The notes beneath the pieces are model-generated. The model saw only the letters and a list, made by a program, of their open reading frames with translations, had not been told where the DNA came from and searched no databases. DNA of 60,463 nt, taken from Desulfuromonadaceae bacterium. GTDB lineage: Bacteria; Desulfobacterota; Desulfuromonadia; Desulfuromonadales; JAHYIW01. The position numbers and the translations under genes were made by a program. Position 1 is the stretch's first letter. The number at the start of each line of letters is the position of its first letter. The stretch is taken from positions 1 through 60,463 of the forward strand of contig JAHYIW010000021.1 in the NCBI GenBank assembly GCA_019429445.1. Direction: 5' to 3'. Of the stretch, positions 13,969-29,818 are shown piece after piece.

Positions 13969-14030
13969 CCCAAGACATGACCTGCAATCTTCCCTTTATC
14001 CAATCAGCCCCTTTTCCTCGAATAATTGAT

Positions 14031-14048
14031 ACGGTATGAATTTTGCAT
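14031..14048 (+). promoter_or_regulatory. Sigma-54-like -24/-12 promoter
   Basis: GG (14033-14034), 10 bases, GC (14045-14046) within TTGCA. The -12 element is good, the -24 lacks the usual TGGCAC extension. Start of transcription would be near 14058. Confidence 0.4.
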
Positions 14049-14150
14049 TAAATACATTACATTAATTTCTTTATTGGAGGGAAAATCCTGAGACCGAACA
14101 GTCGGGTTTTTTCATCATCCCGGCATTACCGAAACGAGTGGATCAATATC

Positions 14151-14648
14151 ATGAAAACCAAAAACCCTCCTTGCTCCCTGCAGACCGCAGACTTCTCGCA
14201 GGAAATAAATTTTTCCGCCAAACAGTTGCTGGCTTTTAAACAATTGCGCTCGCGCGCTGAAGATCTGTCCCTGGCACTGGCGGTGCGACTGCGGGTGATG
14301 GCAAAAAGTTTGGCGGCAGCCTGCCGGAACAACCAGCGGGAGGGTGATAACGCGCTCATGGAGCATGCCCTCACCTACACCCTTCTGCGGCATCAGCTGA
14401 ACGTTTTTCTCGTCACCCACAGCAACGGTGAGTTCAACGCGTTTAAACCGGTTGCCACCGTCCGGCGTCACCTGCTGACCACCTTGCCACGAAATCTGGA
14501 AATTTGCGCTGCTGCCAAGTCGTGCCGCGTTAAAACCATTGAAGAGATGGTCGCTCTGTTGACGGAAACACACCGCGAATCAGGCGATTTTCCTTTCACG
14601 CGGAAACCGCTGTTTTCAGCGCCGGGGCAGAAGACAAATGCGGCATAG
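14151..14648 (+). CDS. Small helical protein of unknown function
   Basis: A 165-residue protein that I do not recognise. It has no signal peptide or membrane segment, is mostly helical, basic in the first two thirds, and has one H-A-L-T-Y-T-L-L-R-H-Q-L helix and a C-terminal Lys/Pro-rich tail. Length, codon use and the ribosome-site-like GAGTGGA before ATG 14151 support it as real. It lies between the sigma-54 regulator and the DUF11 cluster, with a sigma-54-like promoter upstream, so it may be a target of that regulator. A short hairpin with a T run (14093-14113) lies in its leader. Confidence 0.6.
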   Translation: MKTKNPPCSLQTADFSQEINFSAKQLLAFKQLRSRAEDLSLALAVRLRVMAKSLAAACRNNQREGDNALMEHALTYTLLRHQLNVFLVTHSNGEFNAFKPVATVRRHLLTTLPRNLEICAAAKSCRVKTIEEMVALLTETHRESGDFPFTRKPLFSAPGQKTNAA

Positions 14649-14735
14649 GTATTCACACCAGAGTATGAGGGGCAATGAAAGTGCCTACTTGCGAACCACG
14701 AGTTTGCGCATTCAGGCGGAACACGCACTAAACAG

Positions 14736-17700
14736 ATGACACAAAACATGACTTCATTTGGGCATGACAAACAACACGGCATAAAGAAAATTGCGGCGCG
14801 ATGCAGCCAGCGGCTCTTTACGCTGCTCCTTTTTTCAGCCGCATTGCTGCTGATTGCGGCGACGCATGTGCATGCCTGGCCAGCGGACAGCGACTGGATT
14901 CCGATCTATCGCGGAACCGAGATGCTCAGCGACGACAATGATGCCAATCCGAGCAGCCTCGACATCGTCGGCGATGCGACCAATTCTGCCGCGTATCTCT
15001 TCAACGATGGCAATTATATGCACTTCCGTATTCGTCTCGACGCCGATCCCATGGCAAATGCCACATCACTAAAGCAGTTCGGTTGGGGTTTTCTGCTCGA
15101 TTTGAACCAGAACTTCGACGATTACGAATTCATGATCATGCTCGACGGCATATCTGACACCATGTACCTGGCCCAAAACACCGTACAGGGAACACTCGGA
15201 GACCCCTCGGACCGCCCCGAAATCATCCGCTGGCAGGAGACCCTCACCTACGGCAACAACTTCCGGGTAGAGGTCGCGACCACGACATTCGGTAACAACG
15301 CGGATTATTTTCTCGATTACGCCATTCCTTTTAGCGTCTTTAAAAGCAGCATGGGCCTCACGGACTCGTCGATTATCAGCTACTTTGTCGGCGGTTCCAC
15401 TTCTGCTCAAACCCTTGCCACTGATTTGGCTGCCGGGTCGGATCTTTACGACAGTGGATCCAATTTTGTGCTGCCCAGTGGCACGCAACCCACCACCGGC
15501 AGTGTTCATTTTGTCACCGACAGCAGCGGCACAACAGACCTGACCGAGTTTTATGCCGGCGCCACCGTTTATCTTCAAGTGATTGACGCCGACCTCAACT
15601 CTGCGGTCACTTCAATCCAGACGGTCACCGTGTCGGTCACAGCACCGAGTGGTGATTCTCAATCAGTGACACTGACTGAAACCGGCCTCGATACGGGGAT
15701 CTTCACCGGACCGTTGACAACATCGGACGGCTCACCGACAGCGGATGACGGAATATTGCAAACAACTCCGATTGAAATCGTTACCGTCACCTACATCGAT
15801 GGGGCCGACGCGACCACCCCTGTCCCGTTGCAAAACCAGCCACGTACCGACACCGCCCAGGTCTTGCCAGCGGCGGACATTGCCGTGACAAAAAGTGTCG
15901 ATCATGAGACGCCCAACGAGGGGGAAACGATCACCTATACCATCCGCGCCACCAATAACGGTCCAAGCAATGCCAGTGGCATCCAAATCAGCGATCTGCT
16001 GCCGAGCGGCGTCACCTACGTCTCCCACAGCGCCCCGACGGGTACCAGTTATAACTTCGACACCGGCCTGTGGTCCGCCGGGAGTCTGACCAAGGACGCT
16101 TTTAAAGAGTTGACCATTACCGCCACCGTCAACAGCGGCACCGCGCAGACCACCATCCGCAATATCGCTACGCGCTCGGCCGCATCTCAGCCAGATCCCA
16201 ACAATGCCAACGATTCTGATTTCGCCGACATTTCGGTCACCGGCGCCGACCTGAGCATTACCAAGACAGTCGACAATATCACCCCGGCGGTTGGCAGCAC
16301 GGTCCATTTCGTTATCACCGTCACCAACAACGGCACCTATCCGGCCACCAACGTGGTAGTCACCGATATTCTGCCCACCGCCACCTGGGCTTCATTGAGC
16401 AATATCAGTGTCACCCAGGGCACAACCAGCTACGGCGATGGCACCTTTGTCTGGAACGTCGGCACCGTCGCCTATCCCGGTCCCGGCAATGTTGCCACAC
16501 TGGAATTTGACGCAAAGCTGGCCGCAGCGAGCAGCGGCACCACCGTAACCAACACGGCTGCGATAACGGCGGTCGATCAAAAAGATCCGCATCCTGGCGA
16601 TGACGTTGCCAGTGTTACGCTGGTGGTCGGCGGCATCGATCTGTCAGTAACCAAGGTCGTGACTTCACCCAGCCCGGCGACCCCGAATGTCGGCGACAGC
16701 GTCGTTTTTACCATTACCGTCAGCAACAATTTAACGTCATCTACCGAGGCCACCGGGGTCGAGGTCAGCGATCTTCTCTCCACCGGTTTAACCTATGTGT
16801 CAGCCACGCCCAGTGAAGGGACCTACAACAGCGGTATATGGAGCGGGCTTAGCCTCGCACCCGGTGAAAGCCAGACCCTTGATTTAACCGCCACAGTCGA
16901 CAGCGGCACCGCCGGACTTACCCTGACCAATACGGCAACCATCAGCGCCTACAACGAAGTTGACATCAACACCGGAAACCACAGTGCCGCTGCCGCCGTC
17001 GCGGTTAAAGCCGCTGATTTGAGCATTGTCAAAACAGTTGACAACCCCACCCCCAGTGATAACACAAATGTCACTTTTACCATCATCGTCACCAACGTCG
17101 GCACCACCGCAGCATCTGACATCAGCATTTACGATTTATTGCCCGGTCAGGTTACTTTTGTTTCGTCCAGTGCAGATCAGGGGAGCTACGATGATCAAGT
17201 AACCCATCTGTGGAGTGGCATTTCCCTGCCCGTCGCAGGCACCGCCACACTGACCATTACCGCCAAGGTCAATCTCTCTCAACAGGATCCCAAAACTTTC
17301 TTTAACACCGCCGCGCTCAATGCCAGCACCCCCGAAGATAGCAACGCTACCAACGACGTTTCTTCTACGGTGGTCAGCGTCAGTGGCACGGATCTGGGCA
17401 TCACCAAGACGATGAACACCGGCTACACCAACTATCCGGCGAGTCCTTCGACCACCCAGTTCCTGCTCACCCTGACCAATTACGGGCCAAACCCTGCGAC
17501 CAACATTAAAGTTAAAGACACCGTTCCGGACGGCTTCTCCTGCGCCTCAGGAACACCGTCAGTCGGAACCTTTGTCACCAACAAATGTGAATGGACGGTT
17601 TCCGCGCTCGCTGTCGATGCCGTTGCCACGTTGGTACTGACTTCAGCCATAACTGCTCCCGTCGGTTCTACCCGGACCAACCAGGCGACGATCACGGTCG

Positions 17701-19397
17701 CTGACCAGGCCGACCCCAACGGTGGCAACAATAGTGCCACCCAGCTTCTTTATGTCGGCGCGTCCGACATTTCCGTGGCTAAAAATGTCGACAACCCCAC
17801 CCCCAATGTCGGCGACAGTGTCACCTTTACTGTCACCCTCACTAACAACGGCAGCAACAATGTCACCGGCCTCTCCCTGACCGACCTGCTGCCGACCGGC
17901 CTGAGCTACAGCAGCCATAGCGTCAGTGCAGGGCAGTACAACGCAGTCACCGGCCTCTGGGACGGCATCGATCTGACCTACAGTGTCGGCCCGCCGGAGG
18001 TGAAGGAGACCGCGACCCTGACCCTGACCGCCACCGTCGACAGCGGCACGGCCGGAACCGTCATCACCAATGAAGCGGTGTTTTCACCGGTGGGATTCCT
18101 TGATCCGAACACCGCCAATGACCGCGCATCGGCCAGCATTGCGGTACAACAAGCCGATATTTATATCGACAAAATTGCCGACACCCTGACTCCCTATAGT
18201 GGAGAAACAGTAACCTTTACCATCACCGCCGGCAACTACGGCCCCGATACCGCCACCAACCTGATCGTGCGTGATCTTCTGCCGACACAGCCCGACAGTT
18301 CGGCGACCCCTTCCCCGGTTTTTTCCGGCGTGGTGAGCACTCCGAGCCAGGGTACTTACAACAGCACCACCGGCGACTGGGTCATCGGTACCCTGGCAAA
18401 AAATGCCACCGCAACCCTGACCCTGACCGCCACCGTCGTCCCCGGCAGCGAAGGGATGAATATCACCAACACTGCCAGCAAGGTCAGCGCCGACCAGACC
18501 GATGTCAACACGACCAACGACAGCAAAACGGTTGCGATCAGTCCGCGTCTGTTAACCATCGATCTGCGCCTGACCAAAAGTGTCAATAACGCCACTCCCG
18601 ATGAAGGGGCCAACGTCAACTTCACCCTGACCCTTTACAATCTGCACGCCTCGGTAACCGCCACCGGCATCGAGGTCAGCGACCTGCTCAACCCCCTGGT
18701 TGCAGGAAACAATGGTTTCAGCTTTATCTCTGCCACTCCGGCGGCAAACTACAACACCACCACCGGCATCTGGTCGATTCCATCACTTGGGCCGATGAGC
18801 AACACATCACTGGTGCTGACCGCAGCGACACTGAACGGCACTGGTGGCACCACCATCACCAACCTGGCGAGTATCACCGCTCATGACCAGAATGACAACG
18901 ACACGACCAACAACACCGCCAGTGTCGATGTCGCTCCAGTGCATGTACCCAAGCCGAGTTTGACGGTTCTCAAGGCAGTATATGCGGAATCAGACCCCGT
19001 CAACGGTACAACCAATCCGTTTTCTATCCCTGGGGCAATCATGCGTTACGAAATTCAGATCTTCAATTCCGGTAACGGCTCCCCCGACGCGGCCAGTCTG
19101 ATCATCAACGATCCGATTCCGGCAAACACCGCACTGGTGGTCACCGACCCGCCTGTCACTTTTGTTGATGGCACACCGACCAGCAACCTGACCGTGACCT
19201 ATAACAGCCTGGGTGATGCGACCGACCATATCGATTTTTGTAATGGGACCGACTGCACCTATACGCCAACGGTCGATGCCAGCGGAACCGACCCGGCGGT
19301 CAAAAGCATCCGCATTACCCCCGCCGGGACGATGAATGCCGACAGCGGCAGCGGTTCACCAAACTTTAAAGTTATGTTCAAAGTTCTTATTCAGTAA
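14736..19397 (+). CDS. Giant exported protein with tandem DUF11 (Ig-like) repeats
   Basis: A 1553-residue secreted protein. A signal peptide (about residues 20-48, ending H-V-H-A) leads to an N-terminal beta-rich domain of about 200 residues that resembles carbohydrate-binding or DOMON-like sandwiches (D-S-D-W-I-P-I-Y-R-G-T-E). A second domain of about 120 residues follows, then eight DUF11-type repeats of 123-137 residues, each opening with a pattern like A-D-L-S-I-T-K-x-V-D-N-x-T-P and containing T-N-x-G and D-x-L-P motifs. A ninth, diverged unit ends the chain. DUF11 domains are found in long surface and S-layer-like proteins. There is no sortase signal and no own barrel. The ribosome site is weak; ATG 14748 is an alternative start. 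It leads a same-strand cluster of five related genes. Confidence 0.85.
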   Translation: MTQNMTSFGHDKQHGIKKIAARCSQRLFTLLLFSAALLLIAATHVHAWPADSDWIPIYRGTEMLSDDNDANPSSLDIVGDATNSAAYLFNDGNYMHFRIRLDADPMANATSLKQFGWGFLLDLNQNFDDYEFMIMLDGISDTMYLAQNTVQGTLGDPSDRPEIIRWQETLTYGNNFRVEVATTTFGNNADYFLDYAIPFSVFKSSMGLTDSSIISYFVGGSTSAQTLATDLAAGSDLYDSGSNFVLPSGTQPTTGSVHFVTDSSGTTDLTEFYAGATVYLQVIDADLNSAVTSIQTVTVSVTAPSGDSQSVTLTETGLDTGIFTGPLTTSDGSPTADDGILQTTPIEIVTVTYIDGADATTPVPLQNQPRTDTAQVLPAADIAVTKSVDHETPNEGETITYTIRATNNGPSNASGIQISDLLPSGVTYVSHSAPTGTSYNFDTGLWSAGSLTKDAFKELTITATVNSGTAQTTIRNIATRSAASQPDPNNANDSDFADISVTGADLSITKTVDNITPAVGSTVHFVITVTNNGTYPATNVVVTDILPTATWASLSNISVTQGTTSYGDGTFVWNVGTVAYPGPGNVATLEFDAKLAAASSGTTVTNTAAITAVDQKDPHPGDDVASVTLVVGGIDLSVTKVVTSPSPATPNVGDSVVFTITVSNNLTSSTEATGVEVSDLLSTGLTYVSATPSEGTYNSGIWSGLSLAPGESQTLDLTATVDSGTAGLTLTNTATISAYNEVDINTGNHSAAAAVAVKAADLSIVKTVDNPTPSDNTNVTFTIIVTNVGTTAASDISIYDLLPGQVTFVSSSADQGSYDDQVTHLWSGISLPVAGTATLTITAKVNLSQQDPKTFFNTAALNASTPEDSNATNDVSSTVVSVSGTDLGITKTMNTGYTNYPASPSTTQFLLTLTNYGPNPATNIKVKDTVPDGFSCASGTPSVGTFVTNKCEWTVSALAVDAVATLVLTSAITAPVGSTRTNQATITVADQADPNGGNNSATQLLYVGASDISVAKNVDNPTPNVGDSVTFTVTLTNNGSNNVTGLSLTDLLPTGLSYSSHSVSAGQYNAVTGLWDGIDLTYSVGPPEVKETATLTLTATVDSGTAGTVITNEAVFSPVGFLDPNTANDRASASIAVQQADIYIDKIADTLTPYSGETVTFTITAGNYGPDTATNLIVRDLLPTQPDSSATPSPVFSGVVSTPSQGTYNSTTGDWVIGTLAKNATATLTLTATVVPGSEGMNITNTASKVSADQTDVNTTNDSKTVAISPRLLTIDLRLTKSVNNATPDEGANVNFTLTLYNLHASVTATGIEVSDLLNPLVAGNNGFSFISATPAANYNTTTGIWSIPSLGPMSNTSLVLTAATLNGTGGTTITNLASITAHDQNDNDTTNNTASVDVAPVHVPKPSLTVLKAVYAESDPVNGTTNPFSIPGAIMRYEIQIFNSGNGSPDAASLIINDPIPANTALVVTDPPVTFVDGTPTSNLTVTYNSLGDATDHIDFCNGTDCTYTPTVDASGTDPAVKSIRITPAGTMNADSGSGSPNFKVMFKVLIQ
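15871..18945 (+). repeat. Eight tandem DUF11-coding repeats
   Basis: Units begin near 15874, 16244, 16628, 17008, 17384, 17760, 18146 and 18556, with spacing of 370-410 bp. The opening of each unit keeps the D-x-x-x-x-K pattern. Units differ clearly in sequence, so this is an old array and not a recent expansion; units 4 and 6 share the closest opening (V-D-N-P-T-P). Confidence 0.85.
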
Positions 19398-19439
19398 CGG
19401 TTATTGATCGAACATATAAGCAGCCAAAAGGAAAAAACC

Positions 19440-20450
19440 ATGGGCAATAAACGACTAAGAAGATCAGGCCCACTCATCTTGGGCACTCTTGTTCTGGCGT
19501 TACTCCTGTGCCCGTCCATCAGTTTGGCCCTTGGCACGGTGGCCGGCACAGAGATCAAAAGCAAGGCGACAGTCAGTTATCAGCTCGGTGCATCAACGCT
19601 CACCAGGGAAAGTAACGAGGTGACGGTGACGGTTGCCGAACTGATCGACCTCACCGTTGTGTCACAAGATGGTGGCAGCCTTTCCGTATCACCGGGCGCC
19701 ACGGATCGGTATCTGACCTTTTTACTGACCAACACCGGTAATGGTACAGAAACCTTTAACCTCAGCGTGAACAACGCCCTCGCCACCGAACAGTTTGACC
19801 CGACCCTGGTCAATATTTATCAGGATGGCAACGGCAACGGCAGCTACGACGATGCCGTAACGGATCCCGTGGTTGATGCGCTCACGTTGGCCCCCGATGC
19901 CACAGCGACGCTCTTTATCGTCAACAATATTCCGACCCTGCGCAGCGATGGCACCACCTTGCTGGTGGACGGTGATATCGGCACGACAACTCTTGCCGTT
20001 GCCAGTGCCACCGGCAGCGGTGCGGCGGGGACGGTCATTGTCGATGGTGGTGACGGTGGCGCCATCGATGCGATCCTCGGCAACGCCTTTCCGGTCATCA
20101 TATCGGTCGACTACGTTGTCAGTGCGGTCAGCGTTGCAATCGACAAAACTTTGGTGGTGGCCGACCCCTTCGGCGGAACCGTCCCGATGCCCGGCGCAAC
20201 GGTCACCTATTCACTGGTCGTCACCGCGACCGGCACCGGAACAGCCACCGGCCTGACCATCACCGATCCGATTCCGGACAACACCACCTACCAACCCGGC
20301 ACGTTGACCCTTGAGGGGACAGCGCTGTCGGATAGCGCCGCGGATGACGCGGGTGAAGCCACCGGCACGCCGGTGAATCTGCTCACCGTGCGTCTGGGCG
20401 ACATGCCCGCCGGAACCAAAACGATTACCTTTGCCGTCACGATTAACTAA
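19440..20450 (+). CDS. Exported DUF11-like protein
   Basis: A 336-residue exported protein with a signal peptide (cleavage near residue 30), a first domain that opens with G-T-V-A-G-T-E-I-K-S-K-A-T-V-S-Y, and a C-terminal DUF11-type domain (V-A-I-D-K-T-L, D-P-I-P-D-N-T-T-Y). The start ATG 19440 has AAAAGGA upstream and lies 42 bp after the giant DUF11 gene; an earlier in-frame ATG at 19404 would precede the signal peptide. No anchor or barrel is visible. The protein shares its mature N-terminus motif with two other cluster products, which suggests a common export or assembly route. Its function is not known. Confidence 0.8.
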   Translation: MGNKRLRRSGPLILGTLVLALLLCPSISLALGTVAGTEIKSKATVSYQLGASTLTRESNEVTVTVAELIDLTVVSQDGGSLSVSPGATDRYLTFLLTNTGNGTETFNLSVNNALATEQFDPTLVNIYQDGNGNGSYDDAVTDPVVDALTLAPDATATLFIVNNIPTLRSDGTTLLVDGDIGTTTLAVASATGSGAAGTVIVDGGDGGAIDAILGNAFPVIISVDYVVSAVSVAIDKTLVVADPFGGTVPMPGATVTYSLVVTATGTGTATGLTITDPIPDNTTYQPGTLTLEGTALSDSAADDAGEATGTPVNLLTVRLGDMPAGTKTITFAVTIN

Positions 20451-20474
20451 TCAGCAGGACAGAAAGGAAACGCT

Positions 20475-20966
20475 ATGTTGATCGCCAGAATGGTTCAAAC
20501 CCTCACCCTCTGTTTCATCTTGCTCAGCCCGGTCTTGCTGTGGGCGGCAGATTCTATCGAGCTGCTCTCGCGGGTCGAAAAGGTGGTGGTCACCACCAAC
20601 GAAAAGGGCGAAACGGTCGCCGTGATCGAACCCGCCGCCAAGGTCGTGCCGGGCGAATCGGTGGTGTACACCAACACCTATCGCAACGTCGGCGCAGCGC
20701 CGGCGGACGATATCGTCATCAACAACCCGATCCCCGAGCACACCAGCTACATCGGTGACAGTGCTTTCGGCGACGGAACAGACATCCTTTTTTCGGCGGA
20801 TGGCGGCAACACCTTCGCCCCCGACGGAGAAGTAACCATAAAGGACGAGGACGGCAAAGACCGCCCGGCCCGCCTCGAAGAATACACCCACATTCGGTGG
20901 ATCGTTAAAAACGGACTCAAACCCGGTGCGTCAGGAGAAGTCGGCTTCTGGGCGCGCCTCCAGTAA
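20475..20966 (+). CDS. Small exported DUF11-like protein
   Basis: A 163-residue exported protein. A signal peptide of about 25 residues (L-L-W-A-A) leads to one conserved-repeat domain: V-P-G-E-S-V-V-Y-T-N-T-Y-R-N-V-G, then N-P-I-P-E-H-T-S-Y. The latter is the strand motif seen in the DUF11 units of the neighbours. It ends directly after the domain. A GAAAGGAAA site precedes ATG 20475, 24 bp after the previous gene. It could be a single-domain subunit, cap or adaptor of a DUF11 assembly; that is a guess from size and position. Confidence 0.8.
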   Translation: MLIARMVQTLTLCFILLSPVLLWAADSIELLSRVEKVVVTTNEKGETVAVIEPAAKVVPGESVVYTNTYRNVGAAPADDIVINNPIPEHTSYIGDSAFGDGTDILFSADGGNTFAPDGEVTIKDEDGKDRPARLEEYTHIRWIVKNGLKPGASGEVGFWARLQ

Positions 20967-21041
20967 TCAGAAAAGGAAACAGAATCTATGTTAACGAACA
21001 GACGAGAACATCATTCTCACTCACAAGCAAGGAGAAGCATC

Positions 21042-22181
21042 ATGAAAAAAATGTTTATCTATCTCACATTAGCAGTGATCGGACTGCTCTTTGTGACCGG
21101 TTCGGCCCTGGCGGCCGGAACCGCTGCGGGAACCACCGTCAGTAACCAGGCAACACTGGATTACAAGGTCGGCGGGGTCGATCAGCCCCAGGCCTCCTCC
21201 GTAGAATACATCGGAGGGGTTGCAACCGGTGATGCTGCCACCCTCTTTACGGTGGACCGCAAGGTTGACCTGACGGTTTCAACCGTCGGACCGGCAGTGA
21301 CCATCACCCCCGGAGGGACCGCAGCCGCGACCTTCACCATCACCAATACCGGCAACGACACGCAGGATATCGACCTGACCCTCATCGACCTGGATGGTGT
21401 CCCCAATCCATTTGGCGGTTTGCTGTCAGACACTATCGATGCAGCCACCATCAGCTTTTATCTTGAAACAGCGAATGTGGGATTCAATTCAGGAGATGAC
21501 ACGCAGGTTACCCACCTGAATGCCGTCGCCCCGGATACACCACAGACGGTTTACATGGTCATTACCGTAGCAAACACTGTCGTCCAGAACGATCTCGCGG
21601 TTTATGCTTTGCGTGCAACCGCTCGCTTAAACAACGGTGCAGACACTCTGGGTGACGCATTGACCAACGACGCAAACGGCAACACCATTGATGGCGCCGC
21701 AGAGACCGTCTTCGTCGATGGTGATGGCAGCGATGACACGGGCGGTGCCGGAGTGCCGGATGCCCAGCACAGTGTCCGTACCGCTTTTGTCGTCAGCACG
21801 GCGAGCCTCACTGTCTCCAAATCCGTTGCAGTGTTCGATACCGGCAACTTATTACCTTCCGACACTTATGCCATCCCGGGTGCGGTCATGACTTATACCG
21901 TCAATATCGCCAACTCCGGGACAGAGACGGCAACCGGCATAGTCCTTGTCGATCAGATCCCCTCTGGCACCAGCTTCTACGTCAGTTCTGGGCCCACAGG
22001 CGGCACAGTTTACGCCTACAGTAATCAGACGCCCTTCAATCCATCTGCACCAACCTGGACTGAGACCCCTGGCGCCGACGCCAATGGAGTTGACACGGAT
22101 GTCACCGCGATCAAGATCACTGTCGCTGACATTGCCGGGGGTGCCAACGCAAGCGTCACCTTCAAGGTAAAAATTCCTTGA
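21042..22181 (+). CDS. Exported DUF11-like protein
   Basis: A 379-residue exported protein with a strong AAGGAGA site, a signal peptide (M-K-K-M-F-I...A-L-A-A), a first domain opening G-T-A-A-G-T-T-V-S-N-Q-A-T-L-D-Y, and a C-terminal DUF11-like domain (residues about 265-379; D-Q-I-P-S-G-T-S-F-Y-V). The mature domain order parallels the 19440 product, so the two look like paralogues. Start ATG 21042 is preferred over the 20988 in-frame ATG because of the ribosome site. The next gene begins 28 bp later and encodes the barrel fusion. No enzymatic motif is visible. Confidence 0.8.
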   Translation: MKKMFIYLTLAVIGLLFVTGSALAAGTAAGTTVSNQATLDYKVGGVDQPQASSVEYIGGVATGDAATLFTVDRKVDLTVSTVGPAVTITPGGTAAATFTITNTGNDTQDIDLTLIDLDGVPNPFGGLLSDTIDAATISFYLETANVGFNSGDDTQVTHLNAVAPDTPQTVYMVITVANTVVQNDLAVYALRATARLNNGADTLGDALTNDANGNTIDGAAETVFVDGDGSDDTGGAGVPDAQHSVRTAFVVSTASLTVSKSVAVFDTGNLLPSDTYAIPGAVMTYTVNIANSGTETATGIVLVDQIPSGTSFYVSSGPTGGTVYAYSNQTPFNPSAPTWTETPGADANGVDTDVTAIKITVADIAGGANASVTFKVKIP

Positions 22182-22209
22182 TCTTTAACCTTTAACACTG
22201 AATGTCCCC

Positions 22210-25200
22210 ATGAACCTGACGACCCGCACAATCAGACGCTTTACCCAGCTCCCCGGCACCTTTGCCGGGGGGACGGGTGGTCTGTTGTCCGGCGTCGTCG
22301 GGTTATTTTTCACCCTGTTAACGCGTGTGGTTCTGTCTGTTACCAGAGATTCTTTTTTGTGGCGCCGTACCCTGCAACTCGGGCTGTTCTTCTGTCTCCT
22401 CCCTGTTGCATTATGGGCCGCCACCCCGACTGGAACGCATATCAGCAACGTTGCAACCGCAACCTTTAACGGCAGCATTACAATTAATTCAAATCAGGCC
22501 AGTGTCACCACATTGCCAACACCGACACCATCAACCATCGAGTTTTTGCAGTATGTTGCAAATCCGACGGACGCTACAGAACGGGTACAGATCAACGGTA
22601 CGGATTTGAGCAGCTCGGGGGATCTTGCCGGGCCGTTCACTCCGCTGCCGGCACCGACCCCGTTTGGCTCGGCAACACCGATCTCGATTCTGACCCCAAC
22701 CCCGCTGACCACAGCGAACGTCTTTCATCTGGGCGAACCGATCTTTATCCGCCTGACCGATCTCGACCAGAATATTGATACCACCCTGATCGATACGGTG
22801 GTAGTCACCCTGACCACGCAGCTTACCGGGGATCAGGAGGTCTTGCGCCTCTACGAAACCGGACCGGACACCGGTGTCTTTGTTGCCTGGCTGGCAACCA
22901 CCGATATCACCAGCAGTGTTCCCAATAACGGGAGTTTGTCAACCGTCAGCGGAGATTCGCTGACCGTGACCTACCGCGACGAAAACGATGTCAGCGACAC
23001 CTCGGCGACAGCGGCGCTGGTCGATCCCTACGGGATTGTCTTTGACAGTAACACCGGTCTGCCGGTGAATGGCGCGACGATCACGATCATTGACACCGGC
23101 ACCGGCCTGCCGGCAACGATCTTCGGCGACGATGGCATCAGCAGTTATCCCTCAACCCTGATTACCGGCAGTGGCACCACCGATTCCAGTGGCAGGGCAT
23201 ACACCTTCCCGCCGGGCGGTTACCGTTATCCTTTTTTAACGCCGGGATCATACCGTTTTATTGTTACCCCACCGGCCGGCTACGCAGTCCCGTCAACAAC
23301 CGCTACCGCACAGCTTCAATCTTTGCCCGGCGCGCCTTTTGCCGTCACTCCCGGATCACGTGGAGAAGTGTTTGTTGTTAATCCGGGGCCGGCGTTGCAT
23401 ATCGATATTCCGGCCGATCCGGTCAGCGTAGGGCTGTGGCTGCAAAAAAGTGCGGGAAAATCGACGGTGGCAAGCGGTGATTTCATCCCCTATCGCGTTG
23501 AAGTGGAAAACAAGGACCCACTGATTGCCGCGACCGGTATGGTCATCACCGACCGGCTGCCGGTCGGGTTCCGTTATCAGCAGGGGTCAACAATAATTGA
23601 CGGGACAGCGGCAACGGACCCGACGATCGCCACCGATGGCCGCACCCTGAGCTGGAATATCGGCACGCTGGCCGCCGCGACCAAGGTGACCCTGCGTTAC
23701 GTTGCCGCAGTGGGGGTCAATGTCAAACCTGGCGCAGCTGTCAATCAGGTCAGTGCCACAGGGGACAAGGGTGTCACGTCCAATGCAGCGACCGCCGCAG
23801 TCACGGTGCGCGAGGATCTGCTCCGCTCCAAATCGTTCCTGGTTGGCAGAGTGCTATCCGGTGCCTGTAGCGACGATGAAACCGCCCTTGAAGGTCTGGC
23901 AGGAGTGCGCATCTATCTGGAAGACGGCTCCTACGTTCTGACTGACGACGAAGGGAAATATCATTTTGAAGGGATTGAGCCGGGGGTTCATGTGGTGCAA
24001 CTTGATCTCGATTCCCTGCCCCCGACCTACGAGGTCCTGGCCTGTGACGAAAACAGCCGTTTTGCGGGGCGCGCCTATTCGCAATTTATCGACCTGCAAG
24101 GGGGGACCCTGTGGCGCGCCAACTTCCACGTTGGGCTGAAGCCGCGCATTCGCGGTGAAGCGACGATCGCACTGAGCAGTATTCTTGAAGAGGATTTTGT
24201 CACTTTTGAACTGCCACTGGCCATCGCCAGCGTTCCCCTCACCAATCTGCGCTTGACCGCGCTTCTCCCCGCAGGGCTGGCATATGTTCCGGGGAGCAGC
24301 CACCTGGGAACGGCGCCAATCGACGATCCGGCGATTGTTGGCTCTTCGTTGACGTATCGCCTTGGTGATCGTGCCGCCGGGTGGAGTGAGACACTGACGT
24401 TACGTGCCAGACTGCTGGATACCGCTGAAAATGATCTGACCACCCGGGCGCTGCTGACCTTCAACACCCCGGAGCAGGAAAACCAGCGCACGCCGATGGT
24501 TGATAACCTGTTGCTGATCAACCGCACCCAAAATCGCGAAGCGCTGCCGACTTTTGTGGTGCGCCCGCAGTTCCCGATCTTTGTCGCTGAACTGAGTGCG
24601 GCGGATCGGGCGGAACTCGATAATCTGGTCGAACGACTGCGGGGCTATCAGATCGAGAAACTCTATGCCATCGGCCATACCGACAATCTGGCTATTGCCC
24701 CACGCAGCAGGCATATTTTCCCGGACAATTTTGCGCTGTCCGACGCCCGGGCCAACAATGTAGCACGCTACCTGAGCGAACAACTGCGTCTCACTCCGAC
24801 GCAGATCGTGTCAGTCGGCATGGGCGACACCATGCAGATTGCCAATAACGCCACAGCTGCCGGGCGCGCCAGGAACCGGCGGGTCGAAATCAGGATTGAA
24901 GGGTATCGCATCAACATCAACACCAGTGTTGAACTGATCAAGGAGAAAAGTGCTCCGGAAACGGTGGCAACGCGCGGGATGCGACCGGGCGAAGATGTGG
25001 AACTGCCGCCGCAAAAGACGACCGATCAATCCACTAAAATGCCTGCTTATGACTCGGAGTGGCTGGCCACCGCGACAGCGGGGATCGAATGGCTCTGGCC
25101 ACAGAGCACGTTCTACCCGGCAATTCCTTCGATCAAAGCGGCCGTCAAGCACGATCCGCAGCAGCGGGTTACATTTATCCTCAACGGCAAGCCGGTCGAT

Positions 25201-28149
25201 CCGCTCAACTTTGATGGCACCAGACGCAACCTTGCCAAAACCGTTGCCGTCAGTCGCTGGAACGGCGTTGACATTATTGACGGGGACAACCGTCTGCGCA
25301 TCGAAGTCAGCGATTCATCCGGCGCCATTGTGTACAGCGAAGAACGCATCATTCACCACTCTTTGCCTCCAGTGAAAGCGGTCTTGTTGCCACAAGAATC
25401 GGCCCTGATTGCCGACGGAAAAACGCCCCCGGTCCTCGCCGTTAAACTGCTCGACCGCGAAGGACACCCGGCGCGCACCGGTAACGTCGGTGAGTTCCGC
25501 GTCAATCCGCCTTATCATGCCGCAGAAATTCACGCCGAGGATCGCTCCCTCCTCAGCACGGGGGAAAAATTTCGTTTTCAGGTGGAAGAAAACGGTATTA
25601 CGCGCATTACGCTGGTGCCGACCAGCCAGTCAGGAACGGTTGAGATTGCCTTTCCCTTCATAGAAAATAACGAGCCGGTCACTGCCTGGCTGCAACCCGC
25701 CATGCGCGACTGGATTCTGGTCGGCCTCGCGGAAGGCACTGTCGGCTACAATCTGGTCAATGACCACATCGAATCAGCTGCGGCAGCCGGAATTGATGAC
25801 AAGCTTTATGAAAACAACCGTCTTGCCTTCTTCGCCAAGGGCAGCATCAAAGGTTCATGGTTGTTGACAATGGCTTACGACAGCGAAAAACCGGATCGCA
25901 AAGACCGGGAACTTGAACAGACCATTGATCCCGACAGTTACTACACTCTCTACGGCGACGCCACCACCCAGGGGTACGAAGCCGCCAGCAGTGAAAAACT
26001 TTATCTGAAGATTGAACGTAATCAGTTCTACGCGCTCTTCGGTGATTACAGCACCGGACTGACGACCACGGAACTGTCACGCTATAGCCGTTCGTTAACT
26101 GGACTGAAAGCCGAGTGGAACACCGACAATGCCCAGCTGAACGTCTTCGCCAGCGACACCGGCCAAGTCTTTGTCCGCGATGAAATACGCGGCGACGGCA
26201 CCTCGGGCCTCTATCGCGTATCACGCACCGATCTGGTGGTAAACTCGGAAAAAATATCGATTGAAGTTCGCGACCGCTTCCGCAGTGAACAGGTTCTCAG
26301 CAAACGCGAACTGCACCGCCATAGCGACTATGAAATTGACTACGATGACGGCACGCTGTTCTTTAAGGAGCCGATCCTGAGTAAAGACAGCGATTTAAAT
26401 CCGATCTTTATTGTCGTTGCATATGAAGCGCGCGGCAACGGCCAGGAATATCTCAACTACGGAGGGCGCGGGGCAGTCAAGCTGCTGGATAAGCGGATCG
26501 AGGTTGGCGCCAGCTATATCCGCGAGAAACAGGGCCTCGGTGACGGGGAACTGATCGGCACCGATGTTGCGGTGCAGCTCACCGACACCATGCGTCTCAA
26601 GGCGGAAAGCGCGCGGACGGACACCAGCGTTGCCGGTACGAAGGAAAGTGGCTCGGCGCATCTGATTGAACTGCAACAGGAATCTGCCGCACTTCAATCA
26701 ACCCTCTACCTGCGCGATCAGGAGACCGGCTTCGGACTCGGCCAGCAAAATGGCAGCGAGGACGGCATGCGCAAGCTGGGGGGTGATGTGGTGGTGAAGG
26801 TGACGGATAACTTTGACCTCAGCGGGCAAGCATTCCACCAGGAGAACCACGCCACAGCCGCGACCCGTCAGGTGATTGAAGCGGAGACGCGCTATCATCA
26901 GGACAATTACACGCTGAGTACCGGGCTGCGCGAAGCACGCGACGAGTTCGCCGACGGCACCGCCAACCGCTCCCTCCAGGGAACATTTGGCGCGGGCCTT
27001 ACGACGCTGGGGAACGATTTGAATCTGCGCGTTAACCACGACCAGTCGCTGGGCGGCAATGACGCGAGTGCCGACTATCCGACGCGGACAACCCTGGGGG
27101 CGGATTATCATCTGACCAAGGATGTCGATCTGAACGCCACCCAGGAATTCACCCGGGGGGCCGACGAACAGACGCAGGGAACGCATCTGGGGTTGAGCGC
27201 CAGACCGTGGACCAATGGCGAAATCAAAAGTGGCGTCAATCAGGAAAACAACGAAAATGGCCGCCGGGTCTTCAGTACGCTGGGGCTGGCGCAGCGGCTG
27301 CAACTGACTGAACGCTGGAGGCTCGATGGATCGGTCGATCACAGCAAAACCATCCGTGATCCCGGCAGTCAATCGGTGAATATCAACGCCCCCCCGGCGT
27401 CCGGAACTGGCACTGATTTTACCGCGCTGACGTTTGGCCTGGCATACCAGCTGGAACATTTCTCCTGGACTGGCCGCAGCGAATGGCGTACCTCGGACGT
27501 TGACGACAAGTGGTCGATATCCAGCGGGCTGGTGGTGGAACCGCGCAGCGGCATCGCCCTCTCCAATCGCTTCCGCTATCACCACACGGACAGCACGACC
27601 GGTGCAACGAATGCAGCGCTTGAAACCCGCTTCGGTCTCGCCTGGCGTCCGACCTTCAGCCGCTGGATTATTCTCGATCGACTCGATCTGGTGGCCGAGC
27701 GACAGAACGACGGCAATTTCACCCTGACCAATCGGCGCGCAATCAACAACCTGCATCTCAACGTCAAACCTAACCGGCGCACCCAGCTGGCGCTGCGCTA
27801 CGGCGTCAAATATGTTGAGGAGACCATCGATTTCAGGGATTATCACGGGTTCACCGATCTGATCGGCGTGGAAGGGCGTTTTGACCTCACCAAACGCTGG
27901 GACATCGGTCTCCACGGTTCAAAACTGCACGGCTGGAACAGCGGTCAAATCGAATACGGTCTGGGAGCCTCGATCGGTTTCAGTGTGATGACCAACACCT
28001 GGATCAGCGCTGGCTACAACGTGCGTGGTTTTGAAGACCCGGACTTCTCCAAAACGGGATACACGGCGCAAGGGCCGTTCGTCACCTTCCGCATAAAGTT
28101 TGACCAGCACTCGGTCAAAGATGCAATCGCCTGGCTGGGGCACCAGTGA
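22210..28149 (+). CDS. Giant outer-membrane fusion: DUF11, Cna-B-like, OmpA and beta-barrel
   Basis: A 1979-residue protein. After an extended N-terminus with a second hydrophobic run ending W-A-A at residue 71, the mature part opens T-P-T-G-T-H-I-S-N-V-A-T, as in the neighbours. A DUF11 unit follows (about 400-530; T-D-R-L-P-V-G-F), then a Cna-B/SdrD-like module (about 540-610; G-V-R-I-Y-L-E-D-G). An OmpA-type peptidoglycan-binding domain comes next (about 790-900; G-H-T-D-N, A-R-N-R-R-V-E-I). The final 800 residues are strand-rich, with alternating residues and aromatic girdles typical of an outer-membrane barrel, and they end F-R-I-K-F-D. The chain thus seems to span outer membrane to peptidoglycan. 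No ribosome site is evident before ATG 22210; a later GTG or TTG start is possible. Confidence 0.8.
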   Translation: MNLTTRTIRRFTQLPGTFAGGTGGLLSGVVGLFFTLLTRVVLSVTRDSFLWRRTLQLGLFFCLLPVALWAATPTGTHISNVATATFNGSITINSNQASVTTLPTPTPSTIEFLQYVANPTDATERVQINGTDLSSSGDLAGPFTPLPAPTPFGSATPISILTPTPLTTANVFHLGEPIFIRLTDLDQNIDTTLIDTVVVTLTTQLTGDQEVLRLYETGPDTGVFVAWLATTDITSSVPNNGSLSTVSGDSLTVTYRDENDVSDTSATAALVDPYGIVFDSNTGLPVNGATITIIDTGTGLPATIFGDDGISSYPSTLITGSGTTDSSGRAYTFPPGGYRYPFLTPGSYRFIVTPPAGYAVPSTTATAQLQSLPGAPFAVTPGSRGEVFVVNPGPALHIDIPADPVSVGLWLQKSAGKSTVASGDFIPYRVEVENKDPLIAATGMVITDRLPVGFRYQQGSTIIDGTAATDPTIATDGRTLSWNIGTLAAATKVTLRYVAAVGVNVKPGAAVNQVSATGDKGVTSNAATAAVTVREDLLRSKSFLVGRVLSGACSDDETALEGLAGVRIYLEDGSYVLTDDEGKYHFEGIEPGVHVVQLDLDSLPPTYEVLACDENSRFAGRAYSQFIDLQGGTLWRANFHVGLKPRIRGEATIALSSILEEDFVTFELPLAIASVPLTNLRLTALLPAGLAYVPGSSHLGTAPIDDPAIVGSSLTYRLGDRAAGWSETLTLRARLLDTAENDLTTRALLTFNTPEQENQRTPMVDNLLLINRTQNREALPTFVVRPQFPIFVAELSAADRAELDNLVERLRGYQIEKLYAIGHTDNLAIAPRSRHIFPDNFALSDARANNVARYLSEQLRLTPTQIVSVGMGDTMQIANNATAAGRARNRRVEIRIEGYRININTSVELIKEKSAPETVATRGMRPGEDVELPPQKTTDQSTKMPAYDSEWLATATAGIEWLWPQSTFYPAIPSIKAAVKHDPQQRVTFILNGKPVDPLNFDGTRRNLAKTVAVSRWNGVDIIDGDNRLRIEVSDSSGAIVYSEERIIHHSLPPVKAVLLPQESALIADGKTPPVLAVKLLDREGHPARTGNVGEFRVNPPYHAAEIHAEDRSLLSTGEKFRFQVEENGITRITLVPTSQSGTVEIAFPFIENNEPVTAWLQPAMRDWILVGLAEGTVGYNLVNDHIESAAAAGIDDKLYENNRLAFFAKGSIKGSWLLTMAYDSEKPDRKDRELEQTIDPDSYYTLYGDATTQGYEAASSEKLYLKIERNQFYALFGDYSTGLTTTELSRYSRSLTGLKAEWNTDNAQLNVFASDTGQVFVRDEIRGDGTSGLYRVSRTDLVVNSEKISIEVRDRFRSEQVLSKRELHRHSDYEIDYDDGTLFFKEPILSKDSDLNPIFIVVAYEARGNGQEYLNYGGRGAVKLLDKRIEVGASYIREKQGLGDGELIGTDVAVQLTDTMRLKAESARTDTSVAGTKESGSAHLIELQQESAALQSTLYLRDQETGFGLGQQNGSEDGMRKLGGDVVVKVTDNFDLSGQAFHQENHATAATRQVIEAETRYHQDNYTLSTGLREARDEFADGTANRSLQGTFGAGLTTLGNDLNLRVNHDQSLGGNDASADYPTRTTLGADYHLTKDVDLNATQEFTRGADEQTQGTHLGLSARPWTNGEIKSGVNQENNENGRRVFSTLGLAQRLQLTERWRLDGSVDHSKTIRDPGSQSVNINAPPASGTGTDFTALTFGLAYQLEHFSWTGRSEWRTSDVDDKWSISSGLVVEPRSGIALSNRFRYHHTDSTTGATNAALETRFGLAWRPTFSRWIILDRLDLVAERQNDGNFTLTNRRAINNLHLNVKPNRRTQLALRYGVKYVEETIDFRDYHGFTDLIGVEGRFDLTKRWDIGLHGSKLHGWNSGQIEYGLGASIGFSVMTNTWISAGYNVRGFEDPDFSKTGYTAQGPFVTFRIKFDQHSVKDAIAWLGHQ

Positions 28150-28325
28150 CCCAGGTAGCAAGAACTGGTTGATCGTCGGCACACCGAGCGATGCTCTTTG
28201 CTCCCCTGGCCGGGGGAAAGATGACAAGCTGATCAGAACCGGGTATTGTTGAGGAAACAAAGCCCTTTTATCCTGATCAGCATTCTCCGCCTGGTCCGTT
28301 GCAGCAATTCATTTGCAGGTGACTG

Positions 28326-29384
28326 ATGGGAAACCGGATCCAGCCAGCTGCCAGCAGCGGCCACAACCTGTCACGACTCGGACTATTGTTGCTTACCACG
28401 TTGTTCCTGACCACGCCCTCCTTCGGGGAGGATAACGTGCCGGGGGCTGCCGCAGCGGTGGCCGTACCGACGACAACGCTCCTGCCGGAAGCCACCCCCC
28501 GTCTGCCATGGATGTATTACCTTGATCTGACCCACGGGTATCTCTCGCGGTCGATCGAAAATGTGGCGGATAATATCGACTTTTTTTTTGGTGACAACCG
28601 CATCTTCACCGAGACCAGCGGCACCTACGCCCGCATTAACGGCTCCGCGATTTACAGCAAGGGTGGCGAGCGCCTGTTTGGGGAGACGTTTCACCTGCGT
28701 GCCGACCTGACCAACCTCAACAAAAAATTGCATCTGATTATTGCCAGTGATGATCTTCCCCCGGACGACGAAAAGATCAGCAGCGGCGAACGTTTTTCCA
28801 ACCAGCTCGACACCACTGAACCGGTTGTCGCCTTGCAGATTGTTGTGCAGGAGAAACGCCGCTGGGATGTGCGTCTGCAACCCGGGCTCCGGCTCCGTAC
28901 ACCAATCGATCCGCACCTCAAGTTGCGCATCCGTCGGCTTCAGCCGCTGGGTGAGTCATGGCTGTTGCGCGCCACGCTGGTACCAGCCTGGTACGATTCA
29001 CGCGGCTGGGAAAATCGCGCCACCATCGATTTTGATGCGGCGCTCTCAACCCGCACGCTGCTGCGTTTTACTACCGGTGCCCTCTGGCAGCAGGGATTCA
29101 AAAAAAATGTGCAGTTGAATCAGTCGATTTTCTGCTCCTACATTCTGACCCCCAATGATGTTGTCGCGACCGATATCGGCACAACGTTAACGACTGCGCC
29201 ACACCTGCAAGATGATGCCTATTTCGCCGACATCCGTTATCGTCACAACCTGCATCAAGGATGGATTTTTGGAGAGATCAAGGCGCAGGTCCTGTGTGAA
29301 CGCAGTAGCAGCTTCAAAGCCGTTCCCGCTCTGGTGCTGACCGTGGAGATGTTGTTCGGCAAGCTGTACCTGCCACGCATGTAA
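28326..29384 (+). CDS. Probable outer-membrane beta-barrel protein
   Basis: A 352-residue protein with a signal peptide (T-P-S-F-G-E), an Ala/Pro linker, then a region of alternating hydrophobic strands with many aromatic and charged positions. It ends in a Tyr/Met strand after a V-L-T-V-E-M-L-F-G-K-L run, consistent with an outer-membrane barrel of some 14 strands. The function is unknown. It lies 176 bp after the barrel fusion on the same strand and probably belongs to the same surface locus. The ribosome site is weak (CAGGTGAC). It could serve as a partner or pore for DUF11 export. Confidence 0.65.
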   Translation: MGNRIQPAASSGHNLSRLGLLLLTTLFLTTPSFGEDNVPGAAAAVAVPTTTLLPEATPRLPWMYYLDLTHGYLSRSIENVADNIDFFFGDNRIFTETSGTYARINGSAIYSKGGERLFGETFHLRADLTNLNKKLHLIIASDDLPPDDEKISSGERFSNQLDTTEPVVALQIVVQEKRRWDVRLQPGLRLRTPIDPHLKLRIRRLQPLGESWLLRATLVPAWYDSRGWENRATIDFDAALSTRTLLRFTTGALWQQGFKKNVQLNQSIFCSYILTPNDVVATDIGTTLTTAPHLQDDAYFADIRYRHNLHQGWIFGEIKAQVLCERSSSFKAVPALVLTVEMLFGKLYLPRM

Positions 29385-29818
29385 GCCGCCCCCGTTTTGA
29401 AAAAAAAAGGCTGGACCGATAGTGGCCCAACCGCTTGATAATTACACTTTATTTTATCATTTCAGTCAGTTTGGCTGATTCGACCCTACAGGGGACAAGC
29501 TTTTAAAAATCTGCTCAACATTGATCTTGACGCTATCGCTGCCAAAGACATCATCACGGAAGACAGCACGAGAAAGTATTTTGTTTTCAGTCGATTGCAT
29601 AGTTTTGTCTCGATCATTTTTTCATAAAAAAATACTACTTTATCTGAAAAAATCACAGCATTCTTCCTGAGAAGCACTGATCTTCCGCTGAAACAATTTC
29701 CTCCCCCCAGCGGGGGGAGGTCAGGAGGGGGGGGATGCTGCAAACGCCCCCCCCTGTCAAGGGGGCTAGAGGGGGGTGCTGAGCACTCGCAAAACCCAGC
29801 GAATGGCTAAGCCATCAA
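29385..29818. other. 434-bp gap: AT-rich coding remnant and GC-rich repeat
   Basis: No intact gene. From about 29445 to 29625 the + strand has a start-less open frame (it reads ...A-F-K-N-L-L-N-I-D-L-D-A-I-A-A-K-D-I-I-T...) that ends in TAA, possibly a pseudogene fragment. From 29698 to about 29780 lies a C/G-rich repeat with strong pairing CCTCCCCC / GGGGGAGG (about 29699-29718). The reverse-strand open frame at 29486-29743 is considered spurious. Confidence 0.4.
29698..29780. repeat. GC-rich palindromic repeat downstream of fba
   Basis: Runs of C6-G6 arranged as CCTCCCCCC-AG-CGGGGGGAGG, followed by a second GGAGGGGGGG / CCCCCCCCT pair and GGGGGC-TAG-AGGGGGG. It resembles REP-like intergenic palindromes found in many genomes. 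It lies beyond the fba stop and could end fba transcription. Confidence 0.5.

Follow-up and report, generated by a model that had tools for sequence, protein, structure and literature searches.

The run of six genes at 14736–29384 on the forward strand of contig JAHYIW010000021.1 (assembly GCA_019429445.1), from a Desulfuromonadaceae bacterium, raises the question of what its exported DUF11 proteins build at the cell surface and how they are held together there. The window referred to below is the whole 60,463-nucleotide stretch of DNA that was analysed. A first-pass annotation had described six open reading frames (ORFs), P0001 to P0006, five of them with DUF11-type products. All six were recovered at the same coordinates and on the same strand, with intergenic gaps of 6, 24, 21, 28 and 176 bp (the first becomes 42 bp if P0002 starts at ATG 19440), and the N-terminus of every product shows a basic and a hydrophobic stretch, as judged by eye. 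The DUF11 assignment also held, by Pfam for P0001 (eight stretches, 3.3e-200), P0002, P0004 and P0005, and by TIGR01451 alone for P0003 (31.4 bits, over the cut-off of 24, against 19.6 bits for Pfam DUF11, under the cut-off of 24.6). Our answer, which we consider probable, is that P0001–P0005 encode a surface fibre in which each subunit links to the next, head to tail, by way of a DUF11 (CLIPPER) domain naturally divided between the two, covalently sealed and anchored by a barrel.

According to a 2025 report (PMC12617251), DUF11 has been renamed CLIPPER and crystal structure 9IFR holds a Lys715-Asn806 isopeptide bond with Asp748 as the presumed catalyst; the same source states that the bond residues are not kept in all DUF11 domains. 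In this layout the Lys and Asp lie early in the domain and the Asn in a late strand. P0001 (14736..19397, 1553 aa; like all features given here, on the forward strand) consists of a variable N-terminal module, eight complete DUF11 repeats with Lys, Asp and Asn in cis (8/8), and a C-terminal half-domain at 18954..19394. The latter has the Lys (codon 18972) and the Asp (codon 19110), and the chain stops before the Asn-bearing last strand. The same is seen in the C-terminal domains of P0002 (20127..20447, Lys codon 20145, Asp codon 20265) and P0004 (21801..22178, Lys codon 21819, Asp codon 21951), and none of the three has all three bond residues within a single domain. P0002, P0003 and P0004 thus each have one incomplete C-terminal DUF11, as does P0001 in its ninth repeat. 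We refer to the C-terminal domains of P0001, P0002 and P0004 as acceptors.

Homologues were compared in two sets, one of 20 neighbourhoods from genomes of the same order (the first, or order, set) and one of 69 other loci. Gene types were assigned from similarity, length, position and C-terminus, and several P0001- and P0004-types cannot be matched directly by sequence with the window copies. A DUF11 profile of 122 columns was made from P0001-type DUF11 domains after removal of the C-terminal ∼200 residues, and in 15/30 P0002/P0004-type proteins its match runs to within 3 residues of the C-terminus, breaking off at column 83–86. A permissive strand pattern, applied without a null, places the acceptor end 1–2 residues past the last strand in 49/49 proteins of the first set and 1–7 residues past it in 105/105 of the other loci, leaving little room for a sortase sorting signal. 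No sortase was found when the six proteins and ten neighbours were scanned with Pfam (a genome-wide search for a sortase or secretion system was not made), and a chain that crosslinks itself could do without one. The Asn of the acceptor TNxG motif was considered as the bond partner and rejected; as it is found also in intact repeats whose last strand carries the usual Asn, it is taken to be structural.

The missing last (G) strand, with the consensus GTTITNTATITA, is located instead at the start of mature P0002, P0004 and P0005. P0002 (19404..20450, 348 aa counted from TTG, although translation more likely begins at ATG 19440) has this donor motif at 19545..19586, where Ser (codon 19560) replaces the key Asn. 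In P0004 (20988..22181, 397 aa, alternative ATG possible at 21042) the motif lies at 21129..21170 with its Asn at codon 21144, and in P0005 (22210..28149, 1979 aa) at 22432..22473 with its Asn at codon 22447. The search used a last-strand score matrix from the P0001-type DUF11 domains, with C-termini removed, over the first 40 mature residues; mature starts came from a home-made cleavage rule, or were set by hand for the window proteins. With a threshold of 8 that was chosen after the scores had been seen, donors were scored in 25/30 P0002/P0004-type and 13/21 P0005-type proteins, compared with 1/19 P0001-type and 2/20 P0003-type; the sole P0001-type protein, L053_9512, is by anatomy a long two-ended protein. 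Shuffling gave p ≤ 0.01 for 19/30, 9/21, 1/19 and 0/20 of these types, respectively. An AlphaFold2 model of mature P0004 (30 sequences) had a mean predicted local distance difference test (pLDDT) score of 82.8, and from about residue 49 onwards its middle domain aligns with complete sandwich domains (for example 8k2j, 49–229, root-mean-square deviation (rmsd) 3.2 over 127). The arm formed by residues 1–47 therefore seems dispensable for that domain.

Whether the two halves read as one domain was assessed by fusing acceptor C-termini to donor N-termini in 400 random pairs per set and scoring them with the DUF11 profile. The profile spanned both halves in 290/400 donor joins in the order set and in 292/400 in the other loci. 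The corresponding numbers were 74 and 111 for shuffled donors, 39 and 65 for P0001-type N-termini, 95 and 130 for P0003-type N-termini, and 0 and 28 for the acceptor alone. Median gains were 2.85 and 2.45 bits with donors versus −0.2 to −1.0 in the controls. With Pfam DUF11 and the window pairs, the P0002 acceptor scored 28.0 alone, 28.0 with the P0004 donor and 31.9 with the P0005 donor (controls: P0003 N-terminus 27.3, P0001 29.3), and the P0004 acceptor 32.0 alone, 32.9 with the P0005 donor and 33.5 with the P0004 donor (controls: P0003 31.6, P0001 34.5). All four donor joins stretch the Pfam match to profile position 97–113 of 114; among the four control joins, P0001 reaches 107 once, P0003 86 once, and the other two remain at 84.

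Conservation of individual residues follows the same division. In an alignment of 30 mature P0002/P0004-type proteins with a mean column identity of 24%, only Asn81, Lys236, Tyr261 and Asp280 are invariant, and Ile9, Asn11 and Ala13 are among the columns conserved at 90% or more. The isopeptide pair of the C-terminal domain corresponds to Lys236 and Asp280, and the donor-strand Asn near the N-terminus, 225 residues from that Lys, to Asn11. Tyr261 might correspond to the ‘aromatic cap’ that PMC12617251 reports near CLIPPER bonds. Among 77 P0002/P0004-type proteins from the other loci (83 ORFs less six that were incomplete or had no recognised signal; one further P0004-type ORF each in L036 and L042 is missing from the counts), the Lys is kept in 76, the Asp in 76 and Asn11 in 67 (5 gaps, 3 Thr, 2 Ser), with the Lys and Asp sharing top conservation among 355 columns with the middle-domain Asn81.

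The remaining types each keep only one side of the joint, as far as alignments and a donor regular expression can tell. P0001-type proteins have the acceptor Lys in 18/19 of the first set and 21/22 of the other loci (39/41 in all) and the Asp in 19/19 and 21/22 (40/41 in all), and the donor expression matches 2/19 and 0/16. P0002/P0004-type proteins have the donor Asn in 28/30 of the first set and match the expression in 28/30 and 72/77. For P0005-type proteins the donor Asn is present in 18/20 and in 42/51 (6 gaps), and the expression matches 19/21 and 40/51; a usable N-terminus was available for 51/71 such ORFs of the other loci, and the L040 protein was omitted from the donor count owing to a misplaced mature start. 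P0005-types have no C-terminal acceptor, the C-terminus being occupied by the barrel. A tip without a donor, two-ended links and a donor-only base give the grammar of a chain.

P0003 (20475..20966, 163 aa) is a single DUF11-like acceptor look-alike in which no donor strand is recognised and whose Asp position (codon 20724) is occupied by Asn, making it a candidate chaperone or cap. Across P0003-type proteins the Asp column holds Asn in 15/20 of the first set and 36/44 of the other loci, with Asp retained in 3/20 and 6/44, and the donor expression matches 3/20 and 5/40. The Lys column holds Glu in 14/20 and 34/44, a count that is less certain than the Asp to Asn count because this mixed alignment recovers the Lys in just 22/30 P0002/P0004 acceptors (4 gaps), as opposed to 30/30 in the dedicated alignment, and is therefore partly misaligned there; the Asp is recovered in 30/30 acceptors.

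The sequences themselves show the split arrangement, the conservation of the residues and the conservation of the cassette. From these features we infer pairing in trans, a covalent bond, an order of subunits, a role for P0003 and export through the barrel. In the mechanism that we propose, the C-terminal domains of P0001, P0002 and P0004, which lack the G strand and offer the Lys and the catalytic Asp, would act as acceptors (‘catchers’), and the mature N-termini of P0002, P0004 and P0005 would supply the missing strand with its Asn as donors (‘tags’). Insertion of a donor would complete the domain of the neighbouring subunit by donor-strand complementation and, where the donor has the Asn, an intermolecular Lys-Asn isopeptide bond would form spontaneously. 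The order would run from P0001 as distal tip (acceptor only) through one or more copies of P0002/P0004 (donor and acceptor) to P0005 as base (donor only), which would be held to the peptidoglycan by its OmpA domain and in the outer membrane by its barrel. P0003, with its reactive residues mostly replaced and no donor, may serve as a chaperone or cap that binds donor strands in a reversible manner. Since the donor of the window P0002 carries Ser, it could complement an acceptor and not form the Lys-Asn bond, and at least one junction here could not be linked in this way. The function of such a fibre, adhesion or aggregation, is a guess from the architecture. The N-terminal part of the presumed tip or adhesin P0001 (14877–15875, residues 48–380) has no Pfam family of its own, and the N-termini of P0001-type proteins vary between genomes, with at least four types, as would be expected for a variable binding tip.

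P0005 would be the anchor of this chain. From its N-terminus it comprises the donor strand, a complete DUF11 domain, a CarboxypepD/SdrD_B-like domain, an OmpA domain, an Ig-like (immunoglobulin-like) region and a predicted giant outer-membrane barrel. Pfam matches DUF11 at residues 411–530, CarboxypepD_reg at 561–599 (over its cut-off) and OmpA at 793–890, while an SdrD_B match at 559–599 stays under its cut-off. The OmpA domain (24586..24879) is assigned by Pfam (1.2e-12) and by structure comparison, with Z scores of 13–15 to peptidoglycan-binding domains, and 22/23 homologues match Pfam OmpA. The long C-terminal part matches no Pfam or NCBIfam family, and a sequence search of solved structures gave matches confined to the OmpA domain (for P0001, none at E ≤ 0.01). 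An AlphaFold2 model of residues 780–1979 (23 sequences; pLDDT 76.9, predicted template modelling score 0.59) shows the OmpA domain, the Ig-like region and a barrel of more than 30 strands within residues of about 1200–1964 (25807..28101). Ushers have 24 strands, fewer than are predicted here. Pfam OMP_b-brl is matched at E ≤ 1 by 8/23 homologues. On these predictions ‘giant barrel’ is a fair description of the C-terminus.

In a VIA-align structure comparison, the five best rows for the barrel are all FimD (Z 17.1, 16.4, 15.6, 15.5 and 15.4; rmsd 7.5–12.8 across 340–360 residues), followed by PapC at 14.8 and 14.3 and other barrels at about 13–15. We treat the label ‘usher-like’ as a lead from these model comparisons, and subunits may pass through the barrel. 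Foldseek ranked other structures highest, namely the Deinococcus S-layer barrel complex and SlpA (ranks 1, 2 and 6), an Mtr complex (3), LptD (4) and SprA (5). A link to S-layers on this basis was rejected, the Deinococcus rows having query TM (template modelling) scores of 0.18–0.22 and rmsd values above 20 Å, and the Mtr-complex, LptD and SprA rows are as weak.

The five genes travel together. Relatives of P0005 at E ≤ 1e-30 were found in 37/136 genomes of the same order, in 24/53 genera, some of them only as partial matches. In 17/20 neighbourhoods the P0005-type gene is preceded on its own strand by a P0001-type gene, a P0003-type gene and one or more genes of the P0002/P0004-type; of the exceptions, L052 and L047 are truncated where the contig stops, and L053 has diverged and lacks a P0001-type. 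The P0002/P0004 alignment matches 24/136 genomes at E ≤ 1e-20, all within the 27 genomes that have a P0005 match at E ≤ 1e-100; in the three remaining (G009, G055 and G123) the P0005 match is at or near a contig end. As 20 of those 24 genomes contributed rows to the alignment, what can fairly be taken from this count is that 4 genomes outside it match at E ≤ 1e-20, and that 0/109 of the genomes beyond those 27 do.

Beyond the order, a scan of named genome contigs retained 80 of 291 barrel relatives, of which 11 were dropped as repeats of first-set contigs or of loci L016/L022, giving the 69 other loci. Titles of contigs with barrel relatives include Desulfuromonadales, Geobacter, Desulfobacterales, Nitrospirota, Gammaproteobacteria (Woeseiaceae, Marinobacterium profundum) and Krumholzibacteriia, among others. 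Cultured carriers include Geomobilimonas luticola JCM 17780, Marinobacterium profundum PAMC 27536 and Desulfatibacillum alkenivorans DSM 16219. The P0003-, P0002/P0004- and P0005-types occur together in 44/69 of these loci, with a P0001-type in addition in 19/69, and the barrel gene stands alone in 18/69. Where at least 3 kb precede the barrel gene, P0003- and P0002/P0004-types are present in 39/41 (exceptions L064 and L089), and the recognised genes of each locus are all on one strand (69/69). Among the matches listed, the P0001-type at times lies downstream of the barrel gene. Judged from sequence, the cassette recurs in Desulfobacterota, Nitrospirota, Gammaproteobacteria and Krumholzibacteria.

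These results bear on how the locus had first been interpreted. The first-pass annotation had placed a barrel at the C-terminus of the 22210 product, which AlphaFold2 now predicts, and had expected barrel and DUF11 genes to co-occur in related genomes, as they do in both sets. Its proposal that P0005 anchors the DUF11 subunits at the outer membrane and peptidoglycan is supported. A locus of six genes, by contrast, is not what recurs: P0006 is matched in 0/20 neighbourhoods (in L040, L048 and L051 the stretch stops with the barrel gene or no more than 1 kb beyond it), and the conserved unit is the five genes at 14736–28149. Of the suggested ‘S-layer-like coat or fibre’, the fibre fits the split-domain subunits and the S-layer found no specific support. 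The interpretation thus keeps its anchor and its fibre, loses the six-gene unit and gains head-to-tail joining through a split domain.

Further copies and variants of these genes were observed. The source genome has at least one more cassette, on contig C39 (1–9000), with P0001-, P0003- and two P0002/P0004-type genes, broken by the contig end; contig C28 (1–9000) carries two long donor-bearing proteins and one P0003-like protein, and contig C45 (1–9000) starts with an acceptor-type C-terminal fragment. In L040 (genome G008) the barrel fusion gene is present twice, one copy encoding about 2800 aa, and in L038 (G130) the barrel gene is followed by an additional P0001-type gene, which would fit the existence of alternative tips. 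L110 is a barrel fusion on a contig titled as a Halobacteria archaeon metagenome-assembled genome, probably a binning error.

Several observations weigh against the fibre that we propose. The profile match ending at the very C-terminus is seen in only half of the P0002/P0004-type proteins and in 0/19 P0001-types, and the remaining local matches mostly break off earlier, with a few running to column 93–97. Donor scores fall under 8 in 8/21 P0005-type and 5/30 P0002/P0004-type proteins, some of which have misplaced mature starts, and Ser replaces the donor Asn both in the window P0002 and in one of two such proteins of the sister genome. By Pfam DUF11 the donors of the window pairs gain 0 to 3.9 bits, and the P0001 control also gains 1.3 and 2.5. 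The set of 77 proteins was chosen by first-set profiles, and its counts ignore relatedness. In P0005 the donor precedes the OmpA domain and would therefore be periplasmic unless threaded through the barrel; the donor and the DUF11 domain would have to cross the barrel or else join the chain on the periplasmic side. The usher matches are only slightly above those of generic barrels (Z 17 vs 13–15), and 23 members of the P0005 family together match 18 Pfam families at E ≤ 1, with Usher (PF00577) not among them. Finally, the first 30 residues of the P0004 arm are placed with pLDDT 87–93 in a single-chain model, where docking in cis is possible.

That last observation speaks for a reading in which the N-terminal strand of P0002/P0004 fills the C-terminal domain of its own chain to give a circularised subunit, the proteins then being separate adhesins or coat subunits. 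We regard such closure in cis as highly unlikely, given that P0001-types are rarely donor-like, P0005-types have no C-terminal acceptor and the genes travel together; the acceptor-only P0001-types and donor-only P0005-types could not close in this manner. A more serious competitor, though still unlikely in our estimation, is donor-strand complementation without covalent bonds, with the Lys, Asp and Asn inherited from intact DUF11 domains and unreactive in trans. The Ser of the window P0002 agrees with it, as does the donor Asn being kept less well (67/77) than the Lys and Asp (76/77 each). Against it stand the top conservation of the Lys and Asp and their loss in most P0003-types: since these have no recognised donor, conservation tracks the chemistry and not the fold alone.

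The third alternative is that the locus encodes ordinary DUF11 fibrillar adhesins, several independently secreted surface proteins beside one OmpA-barrel protein, whose genes are neighbours through common regulation and whose short C-terminal domain is a degenerate last repeat. A DUF11 stalk and an OmpA-like anchor are indeed known in one protein and some DUF11 domains lack the bond residues, according to PMC12617251. We nonetheless find this reading very unlikely, because the truncation, the Lys and Asp and the N-terminal strand are kept across phyla, and a degenerate repeat is not expected to retain reactive residues. The covalently joined, barrel-anchored fibre remains the reading that we favour.

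How such a fibre would relate to known systems can be considered part by part. Chaperone-usher pili (FimD/PapC, FimC/PapD) are built of Ig-like subunits that lack their G strand and are completed by the N-terminal donor strand of the next subunit, with a large outer-membrane barrel and a tip adhesin that has no donor. The cassette subunits are alike in lacking the last Ig strand and carrying an N-terminal donor strand, as far as sequence goes. They differ in that anchor, OmpA domain and barrel are one protein and in that the isopeptide residues are conserved; there is no usher family match in P0005 itself, and no match to the PapD-type chaperone family in the six window proteins (both Pfam, E ≤ 0.1).

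The CLIPPER adhesin B9T28_05395 of Acinetobacter silvestris (PMC12617251) shares with the cassette Lys-Asp-Asn DUF11 repeats, a long exported stalk, an N-terminal adhesive module and an OmpA-like anchor. It is a single polypeptide with intradomain bonds, whereas the cassette would spread the stalk over several proteins and split the joining domain between neighbours. The archaeal thread of Saci_0406 from Sulfolobus acidocaldarius (PMC9715654) has head-to-tail subunits with N-terminal donor-strand complementation, a proposed intermolecular isopeptide bond and a putative cap protein, all of which are proposed here too. Its bond joins the Asn57 side chain to the N-terminal α-amino group two subunits away, while the cassette residues point to a Lys-Asn bond; it has one main subunit and no outer-membrane barrel, and ‘DUF’ does not occur in the text of that report. 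SpyTag/SpyCatcher and other split CnaB pairs (PMC5487036) likewise divide an isopeptide domain into a short strand and a body. These pairs are established tools engineered from CnaB domains, and the cassette would be a natural split of the CnaA-like DUF11. The auto-crosslinking ‘sporesilk’ fibres cited in PMC12617251 differ from the cassette in having an α-helical hairpin fold and in occurring on endospores. The one report found to mention both DUF11 and a donor strand (PMC11952670) has DUF11 in a spore-appendage anchor, and there the donor strand figures only among the references. Both halves of the mechanism have precedents, donor-strand complementation in chaperone-usher and other pili and, in the archaeal threads (PMC9715654), a donor strand together with a different intermolecular isopeptide bond. 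In the open-licence literature, judged mostly from listings, neither this cassette nor a DUF11 domain split by nature was found described.

We suggest tentatively, and with somewhat less than even confidence, that the cassette represents an undescribed class of Gram-negative fibre that combines tag/catcher polymerisation through a split DUF11 domain sealed by autocatalytic Lys-Asn bonds, a reaction-dead catcher copy (P0003) that guards the subunits as a chaperone until they are exported, and export and anchoring by one giant usher-like barrel bearing the base donor strand and a peptidoglycan-binding domain. If true, the covalent tag/catcher mechanism and the role of P0003 would merit a class of their own, that of donor-strand fibres with natural covalent joints in Gram-negative bacteria, and would explain the working of widespread multi-gene DUF11 loci. 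The look-alike P0003 offers a testable idea for how premature linking is prevented, and each step of the mechanism can be tested with purified fragments. Many divergent natural tag/catcher pairs could also yield new orthogonal tools for protein ligation.

Of the flanking genes, P0006 (28326–29384, 352 aa) matches no Pfam or NCBIfam family at E ≤ 0.01. Its own family is present in 26/136 genomes of the order, that is, 25 besides the source, and in cassette-bearing genomes its relatives lie on another contig or, in G135, about 250 kb away; the sister genome G104 has none. Upstream of the cassette, P0009 (12539–13942) encodes an NtrC-type response regulator, and a similar gene precedes the cassette in 6/20 related loci, so that P0009 is a possible regulator. 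The sigma-54 site that an NtrC-type gene would suggest was looked for and discarded, with none near 14736 and 3 hits in the window vs 2.85 expected; scans of 14000–30000 gave 9 sigma-70 promoters (8.5 expected) and 20 terminators (17.1 expected). P0010 (10738–12324), which we take to be an acetyl-CoA hydrolase/transferase-like gene, lies upstream of the cassette in 12/20 related loci, and the site of the cassette therefore looks old and stable.

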